Origin: Planctomicrobium piriforme
Lineage (GTDB): Bacteria > Planctomycetota > Planctomycetia > Planctomycetales > Planctomycetaceae
DNA length: 38,216 nucleotides
NCBI GenBank assembly: GCA_945860955.1
Contig: CAMATH010000082.1
Coordinates: 1-38,216, forward strand
Direction of reading: 5' to 3'
In this document: positions 264-9,830 of the stretch, piece after piece
Layout of the letters: each line of letters opens with the position of its first letter
Numbering within the stretch: the first letter of the stretch is position 1
Translations under genes and position numbers: made by a program
Notes under the pieces: model-generated
Told to the model about the DNA's origin: nothing
The model's database searches: none
The model's input: the letters and a program-made list of their open reading frames with translations, nothing else

Positions 264-291
264 TTGACTCCCGCGCCAGGTCTGGTAATAT
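264..291 (+). promoter_or_regulatory. Promoter of the blaI-blaR operon
   Basis: TTGACT (264-269) and TAATAT (286-291) are separated by 16 bp, a near-consensus housekeeping sigma promoter. The -10 box lies inside the first operator palindrome, so bound BlaI would block RNA polymerase directly. The expected start of transcription is near 298, leaving a leader of about 45 bases before the ATG at 344. Confidence 0.7.
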
Positions 292-314
292 ATTACCAGT
301 GGTAACCAATTACC
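282..314 (+). promoter_or_regulatory. Tandem BlaI-type operators
   Basis: Two dyad elements of the form GGTAA-N4-TTACC occur in tandem. The first (282-299, CTGGTAATATATTACCAG) is a perfect 18-bp palindrome and the second (301-314) keeps the same arms. Their centres are 17 bp apart, about one and a half helical turns. They overlap the -10 box and start region upstream of a BlaI/MecI-family gene, a family that binds such dyads as dimers to repress its own operon. The role is inferred from position and symmetry. Confidence 0.7.
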
Positions 315-343
315 GGACGGCCGCTGCGGGAGAATGGGATTTC

Positions 344-736: not shown

Positions 737-3700
737 ATGAACGATCTCATTTCATTAGCTACCGCGATCTTCTCCGTGGTCGAATTCCCCTTGGGGGAAC
801 TGCTCGCCAAGTCGACGATGATCCTGGCATTGGTGGCACTCACGTGCACGTTGCTCGGGCACCGCACGGCGGCTCTGCGGCACCGCGTCTGGCTCTCGGG
901 CCTGGCGGCGGCGCTCGTGCTTCCTCTCGCGGCCGTCTTGCTCCCTCATCACACTTGGCGGGTGTTGCCCGGACGGGCCGATCCCCCCACAGTGACCAGC
1001 GGTAGCGACTCTTCATTGCAACCGCCGGCCGTCGCGGTCGCACCGACTGCGCCCGCTCCGTTGACGACCATCCCTCACTCTCCAACGATTTTCACATCAG
1101 ATCGGGAAGTGGACGGTAACCAGCATTCCGTTGACCAATCCATCGCGGACCAGACGACCGACAACCAGACAGTCGAAAGTCGGGTGACCGGGCAGCCACT
1201 CGAAGAACAACCGCAAATCGCCGCGGTGATTCCGACTCCACTTCCGCTCGAGCCGACAACACCGCTCGCGAAACCGTCGTGGAACTTCGTTCGCGTGTGC
1301 GCGGCGTGCTGGATGGTCGGTACGCTTTTGGGGTGGATTCTGTTCCTCTACGTTGCCATACAACGGGAACAGAAACTCATTCAACTCCCGCAGTTGGTGG
1401 ACAGCGACTGGACCGCTTCCGTCACGGCGGCGGCACGAACACTGGGGCTGAACCAGCCAATCGTCACGCTGGAGTGCGATGTAGAGTGCGTCCCGTCCGT
1501 GGTGGGAATCGTCAGGCCGCGATTGCTGATTCCGCAAAACTGGCGGCTCTGGAGTTTGGCACAACGCCGCTGCATTCTGTTGCACGAATTGGCGCACGTG
1601 AAGCGTCGCGACGTGCTGGCCCAGTTTCTTGGACGGTTGGCGCTGATTGTTTACTGGTTCCATCCGCTCGCTTGGCTGGCCGTGCGGCAAATGCGTGTCG
1701 AACGCGAACTCGCGGCGGATGATTGTGTGCTGCTGTCGGGGCAGATCCCCAGCGACTACGCGGATCAGCTCTTAACAACGTTACGGCTGTACCGACCGGT
1801 CACTCCCGAGATGGGAGTCGCGATGGCGCACTCCTGCCGACTCGACCAACGTGTGTTGGCAATCCTCGATCCCGGGCGTCAACGTGGTCCCGTCAGCCGA
1901 CCGTTGTCGTTGCTTTCTGTCTGTGTTGTCGGCCTCCTCGCCGGCCTGCTGGGAACGACCTCCATCGCCCCCCGACTGGCAATCGCGACGATGCCGGTCG
2001 ATTCCCCCGCTGATTCCAGCTCAGATCAAGCTGTGGAGCCAATCGCCGATCCACCGAAAAAACCGCTCTCTGTCATTTCGGCCATGAATGTCGCAGACCT
2101 GCGGCAGATCGCAGAAGTGAAAACAAACCGGCGGATCTATCGCATGATTCGGGGGCCGAAGAATGGTCAAATGGCTTGGCTCAATGGCGACTACCGCGCC
2201 GAACTGGTCGACGATTCCACCTTCGGAACGATCGGGGAGTTGGCACAGGGGAACGCGCCGACAGACTTCGCGCTCAGTCGCGATGGAAAGAAGATCGCGT
2301 GGACCGAGCGGGACGAGTCGACGTATCACATTGACAACGTCGGTGGCGGTGCTGGCGTGGAAATTGACGTGGGTGACCAGCCGGGGGATGCGGCTTTCAG
2401 CCCGGATGGAAAACTGATCGCGATCGGGAAGACCTATTGGGATCCGAAGGTCGAGGGTGCGGGTTCTTCGGAAATGCGTCTCTATGACCTTGTGGGAAAA
2501 CTGGTGCGCGTATTCGCGGGGTCACAACCGGGAGGCTTGATTCCGGTGTTCAGCCCCAATGGGCGAATTCTCGCAGTGGGAAACCGCAACGCCGGCACCG
2601 ATCTGTTCGACGTGGCGACAGGGAAGCGGTTGCACACGCTCGATAAGAAAATGACCCACGAGATTGCCTTCAGCCCCGATGGGCAGACCCTTGCCGCCAG
2701 TTATGTGGACGGTCGGGTCGTCCTCTGGGACGTCGCGACGGGAAAGAAACGGGAGTCCGCGGCGTCCGGCTGCAAGGAAATGTACTCGCTCGACTGGAGT
2801 CCGGCGGGAGATCTTCTGGTGACGGCGGGACAGGATGGCCCGCTTGTTTTATGGGACACAAAGACTCTCACGCGGTTGCGCGAGCTGGAGGGACCGGTGT
2901 GGGTCAACCAGGTCCGGTTCACGTCGGACGGCACCCGGGTTCTCTGGTCGAGCGCCTCCGATGCGACGGCGCGGAAGGATCTCCAGGTCGCTGTCTGGGC
3001 GATTGCCGACCCTTCACAAACCGACATCTTGAGAATCGACCATCAAACGGTTTCCGAGCCGCCGACCGCACAGACAAAGCCCGTGGCCTTCGATTCGGTG
3101 GAACGTCTCGGAATGAAGTTCATCCCGTTGTCGGCAGGCAGGTATTACAGTGGCTGGGACGGCTCGGACGATTCGCTGCGGCCGACCGAGATCTCCCAGC
3201 ACTTTGAAATCGCGACCCACACCGTGACCCAGGGGGAGTGGACGGCGGTGATGGGCAACAACCCGAGCCACTTCTCACGCGGCGGGAGAGGAAAGGAGAG
3301 CGTCCAGACAATCCTCGACATGGACCTGGAGCAGTTCCCGGTGGAAAACGTGTCGTTTGAAGAGACGCAGAAATTCATCCAGCGGGTGAATGAGAAGGAA
3401 CGCGACTCGGGATATCTCTACCGCCTGCCAACATCCGCGGAATGGGAGTACGCCTGTCGCGACGGGGCGACGACGAGGGACGAATGTTCGTTCCGTTATT
3501 ACACCGACCAACCATCCAACCGGATGACTTCGTTTCAGGCCAATTTTCAGGGCAACCTCAGTGATGAAAGCGGACCGTATCTCGCTCGCCCCGCGAAGGT
3601 CGGTTCCTATGCTCCCAACCAGATCGGGTTGTACGACATGCACGGCAACATTGCCCAATGGTGCGACGACGTCTACCAGAAGGAGCCCCGTCTGTACGTG

Positions 3701-4603
3701 GTGCGCGGCGGCTCATGGAAAGATCTCGCCGGTGTATGCGAGGCGAACAGCTTGAGTGCGTTCGCTCCGGACACCGCGTCGTGGGCGATGGGCTTCCGGC
3801 TCGTGCGTGTCCCGATTGCCAAACCACAAGGGATGGGACTGGGCGTTTTTGAAGCGACCATGTCGGAGAGAAAATGGAACGAATTGGCGTCGTACCCCAA
3901 TCTCACGTCCTTGAGGATTGAACATACGCAACTGAGCGATCCCGAGATCCAAGAACTGTTTCGGCTCAAGAATCTCACCAACCTCACAATTCAAAGCACG
4001 AAGGTGACGGATGCGGGATTCAAGGAACTGGCGAAATTCAAGCAACTCACAGTTCTCAGCGTCCGGATTTCGAAGATAACCGACGCCGGCGTGAAAGAGC
4101 TGACGGCGCTGACGAATCTCACGGAACTTCATTTGGATATCACGGAAGTGACCGATGAGGGACTGGCGGAGTTGGCAGCCTTCCCGAAACTCACCACACT
4201 CGACATCTCGCACACCAAGGTGACCGATGCCGGGCTGAAACACTTGGCGGGGATCAAGGGTCTCACCACACTCATCGCCGACGCCAACCGGATCACCGAC
4301 GCGGGCCTGAAAGATCTCGCAGCGATCAGGAACCTCCGCCAATTGCACCTGAACCATACGCTGGTGACGGACGAAGGGCTCAAGGATCTGGCGAGGCTCC
4401 GCGGGCTGACCACACTCAGTTTGGGAGCGACGAAGGTCACGAATTTGGGAATCCTGGAACTCGAACCGCTGGAGAATCTCACCTTTCTCTCGGTGCGCGA
4501 CACGAAGGTCAACAACGTTGGCGTTCGGGATCTGCAGCGGCTGCTGCCGAATTCCCAGATATTTTTACCGAAGCCAACTCCCATTGTTTTCGGTGAGGAG
4601 TGA
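737..4603 (+). CDS. BlaR1-like M56 peptidase with WD40, SUMF1 and LRR sensor tail
   Basis: This 1288-residue membrane protein is the sensor-protease partner of the adjacent BlaI-like repressor. Membrane segments lie near 22-41, 51-70, 185-208 and 391-412. Between the last two is the M56 zinc peptidase core, with HELAH at 283-287 and a downstream ELAADD at about 324-329. After the fourth segment, where BlaR1 carries a penicillin-binding sensor, this protein has WD40-like beta-propeller repeats (about 460-760, with FSPDG and LWDVATG units), then a SUMF1/formylglycine-enzyme-like domain (about 785-1025, with YDMHGNIAQWC and MGFRLVRV), then nine 24-residue leucine-rich repeats (1053-1268). By BlaR1 topology this tail would face outside the cytoplasm. 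The start directly abuts the blaI stop. The fold calls are strong; the signal sensed is unknown. Confidence 0.88.
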   Translation: MNDLISLATAIFSVVEFPLGELLAKSTMILALVALTCTLLGHRTAALRHRVWLSGLAAALVLPLAAVLLPHHTWRVLPGRADPPTVTSGSDSSLQPPAVAVAPTAPAPLTTIPHSPTIFTSDREVDGNQHSVDQSIADQTTDNQTVESRVTGQPLEEQPQIAAVIPTPLPLEPTTPLAKPSWNFVRVCAACWMVGTLLGWILFLYVAIQREQKLIQLPQLVDSDWTASVTAAARTLGLNQPIVTLECDVECVPSVVGIVRPRLLIPQNWRLWSLAQRRCILLHELAHVKRRDVLAQFLGRLALIVYWFHPLAWLAVRQMRVERELAADDCVLLSGQIPSDYADQLLTTLRLYRPVTPEMGVAMAHSCRLDQRVLAILDPGRQRGPVSRPLSLLSVCVVGLLAGLLGTTSIAPRLAIATMPVDSPADSSSDQAVEPIADPPKKPLSVISAMNVADLRQIAEVKTNRRIYRMIRGPKNGQMAWLNGDYRAELVDDSTFGTIGELAQGNAPTDFALSRDGKKIAWTERDESTYHIDNVGGGAGVEIDVGDQPGDAAFSPDGKLIAIGKTYWDPKVEGAGSSEMRLYDLVGKLVRVFAGSQPGGLIPVFSPNGRILAVGNRNAGTDLFDVATGKRLHTLDKKMTHEIAFSPDGQTLAASYVDGRVVLWDVATGKKRESAASGCKEMYSLDWSPAGDLLVTAGQDGPLVLWDTKTLTRLRELEGPVWVNQVRFTSDGTRVLWSSASDATARKDLQVAVWAIADPSQTDILRIDHQTVSEPPTAQTKPVAFDSVERLGMKFIPLSAGRYYSGWDGSDDSLRPTEISQHFEIATHTVTQGEWTAVMGNNPSHFSRGGRGKESVQTILDMDLEQFPVENVSFEETQKFIQRVNEKERDSGYLYRLPTSAEWEYACRDGATTRDECSFRYYTDQPSNRMTSFQANFQGNLSDESGPYLARPAKVGSYAPNQIGLYDMHGNIAQWCDDVYQKEPRLYVVRGGSWKDLAGVCEANSLSAFAPDTASWAMGFRLVRVPIAKPQGMGLGVFEATMSERKWNELASYPNLTSLRIEHTQLSDPEIQELFRLKNLTNLTIQSTKVTDAGFKELAKFKQLTVLSVRISKITDAGVKELTALTNLTELHLDITEVTDEGLAELAAFPKLTTLDISHTKVTDAGLKHLAGIKGLTTLIADANRITDAGLKDLAAIRNLRQLHLNHTLVTDEGLKDLARLRGLTTLSLGATKVTNLGILELEPLENLTFLSVRDTKVNNVGVRDLQRLLPNSQIFLPKPTPIVFGEE
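3893..4540 (+). repeat. Nine in-frame 72-bp leucine-rich repeat units
   Basis: The 3' end of the blaR1-like gene encodes nine consecutive 24-residue units of the pattern LTxLxLxxTKVTDAGLKxLA. No unit is shorter or longer than 24 residues, so the DNA has a 72-bp period. Units are diverged at base level, so this is an old protein repeat and not a recent tandem duplication. Confidence 0.85.
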
Positions 4604-4703: not shown

Positions 4704-5630
4704 TCAATCCGGCATCAACAGCTTGTCAAACAGAAACGCGTTGCCATTCGCGTATTCTTTGGGCTGTGAAACGCCAGGAATAACCAGATAGCACTCGTGT
4801 CCGCACGCGTCCGACTTTTCTTTCAGCTTCAGACCGTAGGCCGGGTGGTGGATTCCGTGACTGGCGTCGCGTGACGGCAGAGAAGTCTCGGCACTGCAGG
4901 TCATGAACAACGGCGGATCATTGGCATCGACGTGGTTGATCGGGGAGAACTCGACGTAGATCGCCCGGTGTTTTTCATAGTGGGCGAGCGCCTGTTCGAT
5001 GGTCTTTTCTCCGACGGCGAACGCGATCATCCGATGTTGCAGGACGTTTGGTCCCAGCCAGGGCTCGATCACTTTGGGATCAATCGACGTTTGACCGACG
5101 TTGACTGCCGCCGCGCAGACGCGGGTCGACTCGCGCGCCACGGGATCCTTCGCATCCGGATCGGCAAGATCATCGTGCAACAGCAGCCACATGGAAGTGC
5201 AGGCCCCGGCGCTGGGGCCACTCACCGCAACCCGCCGGGGATTTATTCTCCAGTCGGTCGCTTTGGTCCGCAGAAACTGAATGGCCCTGGCGGCGTCGTG
5301 AACCGGAGCGGGGAGTGGATGGTCGGGAGTCAATCGGTAATTGATGGAGGCGATCGAAATCCCCCGATCCAGAAACGGCTGATAGTCGGGGAGTTTCTGA
5401 CGCTTGTCTCCCGTCACCCACCCTCCGCCATGAATGTGTACCAGCAACGGCCGCGGCCCCTCGCCCTTCGCCTGCCAGAAGTCCAGTACATTCCGTTCGT
5501 GCGGCCCATAGGGGATATCGGCAAACGTCGGTTCCGGAAGGGGGGAATCGGCGGGCGCGTTCTGGCCGGCGGCGCATCCGGCCGACAAGCCGACGAATAG
5601 TATCCAGAGGGAAAGGGTCCGAATCGTCAT
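4704..5630 (-). CDS. Lipoprotein alpha/beta-hydrolase (esterase/lipase)
   Basis: A 308-residue alpha/beta-hydrolase of the carboxylesterase/lipase type related to the BD-FAE and hormone-sensitive-lipase groups. A signal peptide ends in a lipobox LSAGC with Cys19 as the lipidation site, so the mature enzyme should be membrane-anchored outside the cytoplasm. HGGGW (67-71) forms the oxyanion hole, and GPSAG (138-142) supplies the nucleophile Ser140. The catalytic Asp and His are expected in the C-terminal third, where DANDPP and HGIHHPAYG are candidates. It probably hydrolyses an ester; the substrate cannot be told. It converges on the blaR-like gene with about 100 bp between them. Confidence 0.85.
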   Translation of the reverse strand: MTIRTLSLWILFVGLSAGCAAGQNAPADSPLPEPTFADIPYGPHERNVLDFWQAKGEGPRPLLVHIHGGGWVTGDKRQKLPDYQPFLDRGISIASINYRLTPDHPLPAPVHDAARAIQFLRTKATDWRINPRRVAVSGPSAGACTSMWLLLHDDLADPDAKDPVARESTRVCAAAVNVGQTSIDPKVIEPWLGPNVLQHRMIAFAVGEKTIEQALAHYEKHRAIYVEFSPINHVDANDPPLFMTCSAETSLPSRDASHGIHHPAYGLKLKEKSDACGHECYLVIPGVSQPKEYANGNAFLFDKLLMPD

Positions 5631-9377: not shown

Positions 9378-9582
9378 TCCACACGCCTCCCAGTTCTCGT
9401 TACGAATGGAACCGACCGTATTCCCTGGTCCGCGCGACACGACTCCCTTCCGGTTGATCTCGCCGCGCCTCCGCAAACGTATCGGCGTGTCGATCACCCG
9501 TCAGTCTGGCGGAAATCAATTGTACCGGTTGTGCCGTCGATTCTATAGGTGAGGATTGCGCGGTCAAGACGGGTTCATCTCT

Positions 9583-9749
9583 CGTTCCCAAGCTCTGCTC
9601 TCTCTCGTTCCCAAGCTCTGCTTGGGAACGCATCGTCCGAAGCTCTGCTTCGCGAGAGCATCACAAAGAGTGTTGACGCCGCCACTGAATTGTTTGCCTC
9701 CCGAAGCAGAGCTTCGGAAGGGTGCGTTCCCAAGGAGACCTTGGGAACG
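9583..9749. repeat. Composite inverted-repeat element (BIME/MITE-like)
   Basis: An ordered set of palindromes: a truncated unit at 9583-9600, a 25-bp hairpin at 9606-9630 (arms CGTTCCCAAG), a small hairpin CGAAG-CTCTG-CTTCG at 9638-9652, a 17-bp hairpin at 9701-9717, and a 25-bp hairpin at 9725-9749. The right half (9697-9749) is the imperfect reverse complement of the left half (9606-9658), around a unique core of about 38 bp. Each arm is thus itself palindromic. This matches REP doublets (BIMEs) or a short non-autonomous element. No transposase is nearby. Confidence 0.8.
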
Positions 9750-9830
9750 AGATCTTTCGGTTGCGCCCCCGCGAAGCGGTGCCGCGCCGCGTTCCTTCTG
9801 TCCCCAATCGCACCGATCGGGACGCTGGAA

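Follow-up and report, generated by a model that had tools for sequence, protein, structure and literature searches.

A predicted BlaI/BlaR1-type signalling pair with a WD40, SUMF1-like and leucine-rich repeat tail in a planctomycete

BlaR1 and BlaI are known chiefly as an antibiotic-resistance switch. In the study of the Staphylococcus aureus system (PDB 8exp-8ext; PMC9834060), cryo-electron microscopy gives BlaR1 a topology with both termini outside (Nout/Cout), and the C-terminal outer domain is the sensor. A gene pair of related plan opens a 38,216-nucleotide stretch of Planctomicrobium piriforme DNA (the window; assembly GCA_945860955.1, contig CAMATH010000082.1), where, in the list of open reading frames (ORFs), the TAA stop codon of a blaI gene abuts the ATG (737) of an ORF for a 1288-residue protein with an M56 peptidase core. 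Shared with the S. aureus system are an M56 zincin, four transmembrane (TM) helices, the Nout/Cout arrangement (here by prediction), a C-terminal outer domain and an adjacent BlaI with a palindromic operator (here putative). Unlike BlaR1, with its class-D-like penicillin-binding sensor, the planctomycete protein ends in a WD40 propeller, a SUMF1-like domain and leucine-rich repeats (LRRs); it also has a disordered outer loop of about 110 residues, and the bicistron has an operator of the type TGGTAATnnATTACCA and no resistance gene. We read the pair as a two-gene transmembrane signalling unit of the BlaI/BlaR1 type with a non-penicillin, exchangeable and exported receptor, that is, a private receptor-repressor pair (probability roughly 0.6).

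An initial annotation made from the sequence alone had proposed a BlaR1-type M56 core beside a BlaI gene, and a tail of WD40, SUMF1 and nine LRR modules with no penicillin-binding domain. The first proposal is borne out by Pfam (Peptidase_M56 at residues 174-376, 2e-29; Penicillinase_R, 9.9e-25, for the neighbour) and by structural matches to BlaR1, and the second by a single intact ORF (ATG start, no internal stops), by Pfam and by the LRR spacing. FGE-sulfatase/SUMF1 is matched at residues 796-1024 (7.9e-32), WD40-type models have their best stretches at about 572-761, and LRR models theirs between 1046 and 1189. A penicillin-binding domain is not among the 25 of 50 Pfam families listed for the protein, and other domains fill the tail. 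Pfam thresholds ranged from 1e-5 to 1, so that weak extra domains could be hidden, and lists of the best 25 families were also used for L017, L060, L071, L219 and L248. Because it is without the penicillin-binding sensor domain, the protein, judged by its sequence, belongs to the wider M56/BlaI kind and is not, strictly speaking, a BlaR1.

For residues 1-480, AlphaFold gives a model (mean pLDDT 76.6, pTM 0.68) that contains a confident zincin and helices at residues 18-39, 45-68, 182-216 and 388-407, with pLDDT <50 over most of residues 104-164 in the outer loop. The zinc motif is intact: HELAH occupies residues 283-287, and H283, E284, H287, E324 and D328 are invariant across 53 aligned M56 proteins, giving the HEXXH motif and downstream acidic ligand of a BlaR1/MecR1-type zincin. 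Foldseek matches of the M56 model to the PDB at E<=0.001 are BlaR1 chains only (6 of the 77 listed at E<=10). Structure prediction, which had been suggested as a check, recovered the M56 domain, the TM helices and the propeller, and its helices, with most of the charges, give a predicted Nout/Cout topology; the SUMF1 part was modelled poorly (pLDDT <50 at residues 770-784, 800-818 and 908-1018), and for this reason the SUMF1 fold is taken from sequence matches.

In the modelled tail, whose alignment spans residues 440-1031, 28 strands at about 455-756 were read as seven four-strand blades. The best PDB match of the propeller is 5yzv, a prokaryotic WD40 domain (target TM-score 0.86), which is another protein, with 27% identity. 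LRR starts run from residue 1056 to residue 1248 at a spacing of 24 residues (n=9); one extra short-motif match at residue 1125 was taken as chance and ignored in the count. The domain between them shares FGE-sulfatase with the formylglycine-generating enzyme (FGE)/SUMF1 family, and its best PDB sequence matches are PorK/GldK (9mzu, 9ots; related lipoproteins 9myj, 9p6h), followed by 5aoh (named CotH), 2y3c (Treponema variable protein 1), 1y4j (SUMF2) and then FGE. It had been described as enzyme-like, a description that fails at the positions we take to be the FGE active-site cysteine pair: C1001, in RGGSWKDLAGVC, is the only cysteine of the domain, the first active-site position is Asp, and a cysteine is found there in none of 10 aligned planctomycete SUMF1 homologs. 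A catalytic FGE was rejected on this ground. In contrast to FGE/SUMF1, the domain lacks the first cysteine and is embedded in a receptor-like chain; because one of the two cysteines is missing, a binding role seems likelier than catalysis.

The regulatory sites add to what the initial annotation described. Two tandem putative operators of the TGGTAATnnATTACCA type lie across the -10 box of the blaI promoter, so that an adjacent BlaI gene with an operator over the promoter, as in BlaR1/MecR1-type systems, is predicted here too. TTGAC is unchanged in five aligned promoters, and both operators have counterparts, with at most one mismatch to TGGTAANNNNTTACCA and much of the flank different, in a second species of the same genus (G002), in another genus (G171) and in G026. 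Exact TGGTAAnnnnTTACCA occurs once in each of these four genomes, at blaI every time, and all four share a TGGTAA operator and the BlaI segment PAYDSVRTMLRLLE, presumably the recognition helix. By contrast, TGGTAAnnnnTTACCA is among the three best palindromes of none of the 18 other BlaI promoters tabulated, which show other palindromes (TGGCA..TGCCA, TGTTA..TAACA, TGTCA..TGACA and more), and the BlaI helices, compared by eye, differ as well in the other BlaI/M56 pairs examined. The pairing of operator and BlaI helix is clade-specific. Among own-genome BlaI palindromes, 6 of 11 (L016, L018, L019, L020, L022 and the window) were equalled by at most 10 of 200 shuffles, while five (L015, L021, L024, L025, L026) did not pass; L023 was outside this test. 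That each BlaI/M56 pair has a distinct operator is shown in some cases and no more than suggested in the others.

Sites matching TGGTAANNNNTTACCA with at most one mismatch lie outside blaI promoters in 1 of 3 cases in the window's genome (G000), 3 of 5 in G002, 2 of 4 in G026 and 10 of 12 in G171, with no excess over a reversed control pattern (9, 8, 6 and 23 sites, respectively), and a wider regulon was rejected on this comparison. At two mismatches, TGGTAATNNATTACCA gave 13 sites versus 0 for the control in G000 and 11 versus 1 in G002. Beyond the operon, these lie near a BlaI only in the promoter that belongs to the nearest paralogs (the L021/L069 pair), and the one common to both genomes (C53/C49) falls within a 951-residue open frame. 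As the exact operator was found only there, the operon itself, including the tail-bearing protein, is the only predicted direct output. Related operators occur in the L021/L069 pair; in L021 (4716-4749) they are TGGCAATAGAATGCCA and TGTTAATGGATTGCCA.

Sister pairs are numerous. The window's genome has 14 matches to PF05569, 13 of them above the cut-off; the fourteenth (C117) was rejected as an M48 peptidase (M48 6e-13, M56 2e-4). BlaI adjoins 12 of the 13 M56 genes (that of L023 was recognised by eye), and none was found upstream of the remaining gene, L017 on C97, whose tail is WD40. A Pfam scan covered 44 M56 proteins, these 13 and 31 from relatives that were picked as best matches to the window and are not a random sample. 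No penicillin-binding domain is listed for any of the 44, which suggests that its absence is the rule among planctomycete M56 proteins. The proposal that a penicillin-binding sensor had been replaced therefore stands as far as the window protein has none, but this is no special feature of it. A signal other than beta-lactams, also proposed, is probable because the domain is absent.

By our own labels, 24 of the 43 M56 proteins scanned first have CarboxypepD_reg tails (for L022, L023, L024 and L224 on scores below Pfam's cut-off); other tails are WD40, LRR, HEAT, AhpC/thioredoxin, secretin, S41-PDZ, PSCyt2 or FecR_C, or none was recognised. The window pair resembles these pairs in that BlaI adjoins an M56 protein with a non-penicillin tail, and differs in that SUMF1 is listed for its protein alone among the 44. 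On an M56 tree of a quick kind (43 rows, namely 42 of the 43 proteins, L069 being left out, and the G002 core; L017/L019 and L025/L026 carry flags for long branches), the tail classes require 14 changes, against a minimum of 4 and a shuffled mean of 18.8, with 0 of 200 shuffles as low. M56 tails have been exchanged often, yet not at random. The window, G002, G026 and G171 form one clade (SH-aLRT 100) whose members are all WD40-tailed. In open-licence PMC papers we found no description of planctomycete BlaI/M56 pairs or their tails, some of the search results being noisy.

Some sister proteins have unusual tails. L019 (G000:C54) is a BlaI/M56 pair with a secretin domain (PF00263) in the M56 tail, and L063 (G026:C40) encodes an M56 protein of 3688 residues with a very long CarboxypepD_reg tail. 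In L231 (G059:C1), with BlaI adjoining, M56 is fused to a PDZ-S41 protease, and the two proteases of this chain are perhaps on opposite sides of the membrane.

The domain order of the window protein, which the initial annotation had thought worth seeking in other planctomycete M56 proteins, was seen in a narrow range. We searched 59 relatives with the full protein, 170 family genomes with the M56 core and 397 class genomes with M56-WD40, and took the best 80 of 128 matches from a GTDB contig search. Among 273 loci, many with short flanks where tails can be clipped, 194 open frames match M56, and SUMF1 is in frame with M56 in only 4, all overlapping copies of the window gene. SUMF1-LRR attached to M56-WD40 was seen in the window's genus only. 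At E<=1e-30 the M56 core had no match in the two remaining genomes of that genus. M56-WD40 without SUMF1 occurs in G171, in G026 (with two WD40 regions) and in G177 (with a more divergent BlaI), and the older unit of the clade seems to consist of BlaI, M56 and the WD40 arm. Since five M56-less planctomycete proteins, from G030 (two), G033, G035 and G057, carry SUMF1 and LRR in one frame, this module pair travels on its own. These frames are L269, L271, L272, L273 and L270, with the LRR first in L270.

We propose that BlaI dimers occupy both of the operators that lie in tandem across the -10 box, which would repress their own operon. The M56 protein would cross the membrane four times, with its termini outside and the zincin inside, and its exported propeller-SUMF1-LRR arm would bind a ligand outside the cytoplasm, probably some protein or polymer. 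Activation would follow if ligand binding shifted TM4 and freed the zincin to cut BlaI; cleavage would derepress the operon, and more receptor would be made, amplifying the response.

Several observations count against this proposal. The BlaR1 superposition is partial (query TM-scores 0.31-0.34), and only that with 8exr_A is good (root-mean-square deviation 2.7). Residues 208-225, after TM3, have 2 K+R and 3 D+E, contrary to the positive-inside rule. Near the site where BlaI is cut (Asn|Phe in S. aureus), the alignment with MecI is gapped; by eye, the likely place has Leu in the window and Phe in G026 and G171. Some SUMF1/LRR homologs are without an export signal (L077, L057) or look kinase-like (L043, L050), and several sister tails look enzymatic (AhpC, S41), as an effector would. 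Operator targets outside the operon were not found in the four draft genomes, from which sites may be missing.

The last two points bear on the main rival, which we consider unlikely: the tail would be the product of the system and not its sensor, BlaI and M56 merely regulating the amount of an outer scaffold or adhesin anchored in the membrane while M56 senses through its membrane or loop parts. The exact operator, which in none of the four genomes was found away from its own promoter, the AhpC/thioredoxin, S41-PDZ and secretin tails of other M56 proteins, which look like effectors, and the LRR, which is the best-conserved part of the tail, all suit it. However, the WD40 arm tracks one BlaI/operator type in the four genomes, and in BlaR1 it is the C-terminal outer domain that senses (PMC9834060); both argue for the tail as receptor.

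That cell-wall stress or beta-lactams are still sensed, through a separate penicillin-binding partner docking on the tail, is improbable. BlaI and M56 are bla-type parts, and repeat domains in general often bind proteins; yet the bicistron has no penicillin-binding or beta-lactamase gene (the rest of the genome was not searched for a partner), and the 44 M56 proteins scanned argue the same way.

Slightly more improbable again is a cytoplasmic tail that binds a cytosolic ligand. WD40 repeats are often cytosolic, and the kinase-like and signal-less homologs would agree, but the four TM helices, the charge pattern and the homology to BlaR1 predict that the C-terminus is outside, where the initial annotation had placed it. 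Charges (K+R/D+E) are 0/3 at the N-terminus, 3/0 in the TM1-TM2 turn, 5/12 in the outer loop and 1/5 at residues 411-440 behind TM4. Because the helices and most segment charges fit, the modelled protein probably has the Nout/Cout topology of BlaR1/MecR1-type proteins, with the zincin inside and the tail exported. Stand-alone WD40 homologs also look exported: 3 of 3 checked begin with a signal-like segment or an N-terminal TM helix, and, by eye, the same seems true of the N-termini of stand-alone propellers with 50% identity in G168, G216 and G323 (inspected for these and G025, 4 of 11 WD40-only matches). Signal-like N-termini occur in 4 of 5 SUMF1 homologs and 6 of 7 LRR homologs with a closed 5' end.

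The gene itself appears sound. On contig C628 of G002, residues 491-1288 are in one frame at 88% identity, with blaI, its promoter and the M56 part on a different contig, which stops at residue 454 (gap 454-491), and G171 has a complete BlaI and a 715-residue M56-linker-WD40 protein in one frame, ending after the propeller. Omega values, rough because they come from the single species pair of window and G002, are 0.27 for the M56 core and 0.023 for an rpoD-like control (other modules in Table 1), and outer-loop residues 97-180 reach 0.99 at 47.6% identity. All tail domains are under purifying selection. That misassembly has fused separate SUMF1 and LRR genes is hardly credible and was rejected, since, although M56 and WD40 are on separate contigs in the G002 assembly, each junction is contiguous elsewhere (WD40-SUMF1-LRR in G002, M56-WD40 in G171) and every module is under purifying selection; the single gene of the initial annotation stands. 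The outer loop of the G002 copy (L059, about 6198) falls 47 bp short, with the frame shifted, which is either a draft error or a broken gene.

With odds somewhat short of even, planctomycetes may hold a large family of switches that lead in one step from membrane to DNA and are insulated from one another, every BlaI/M56 pair having a separate operator code and an exported receptor that can be exchanged; the window gene would be the propeller-SUMF1-LRR variant, with the receptor as its own main output. Such a family, if real, would be comparable to two-component or extracytoplasmic function (ECF)/anti-sigma systems elsewhere. M56/BlaI would then be a general bacterial signalling chassis, one core with many tails per genome and with several operators visibly different, and a clean test case is offered by the clade of four genomes that share one conserved operator.

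Table 1. Features of the bicistron in the window (res, residues of the M56 protein; omega, window versus G002).
Feature	Position	Strand	Basis
Sigma70-like blaI promoter: -35 TTGACT (264-269), 16-bp spacer, -10 TAATAT (286-291)	264..291	+	motif search; five-promoter alignment
Putative operator 1, TGGTAATATATTACCA, perfect palindrome overlapping -10 box	283..298		palindrome search; 2/200 shuffles as good
Putative operator 2, TGGTAACCAATTACCG, centre 17 bp downstream of that of operator 1	300..315		palindrome search, promoter alignment
blaI/Penicillinase_R repressor, 130 aa	344..736	+	PF03965 9.9e-25; MecI 1okr E 6.3e-5; omega 0.03
M56-WD40-SUMF1-LRR protein, 1288 aa	737..4603	+	ORF reading and Pfam
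TM1 (res 18-39) and TM2 (45-68), positive turn between	788..940	+	AlphaFold helices; charges
Long outer loop (res 69-181), largely disordered, fast-evolving	941..1279	+	pLDDT; omega
Helix 182-216 containing TM3	1280..1384	+	AlphaFold
Zinc metalloprotease domain (res 223-377); HELAH 1583-1597; E324 third-ligand candidate 1706-1708	1403..1867	+	M56 alignment, AlphaFold, Foldseek BlaR1 8exq/8exr
TM4 (res 388-407)	1898..1957	+	AlphaFold
Linker (res 408-454), acidic right behind TM4	1958..2098	+	charge count
WD40 propeller (res 455-756), probably seven blades	2099..3004	+	Pfam, AlphaFold, structure match; omega 0.28 (491-770)
SUMF1/FGE-sulfatase-like domain (res 785-1028), single cysteine C1001 behind RGGSW	3089..3820	+	Pfam, PDB sequence matches; omega 0.20
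Nine 24-residue LRRs (res 1056-1271), then C-terminal cap	3902..4549	+	repeat motif; omega 0.15 (1030-1288)

The next long ORF, esterase-like by eye, is on the opposite strand (4704-5630). Further along, the 5' portion of one of the listed ORFs contains a dispersed repeat (9604-9752) accompanied by a shorter arm in inverted orientation; positions 9556-9700 match the genome at 27 places, two of them in the window itself, often as inverted pairs, and the element is REP/BIME- or MITE-like.

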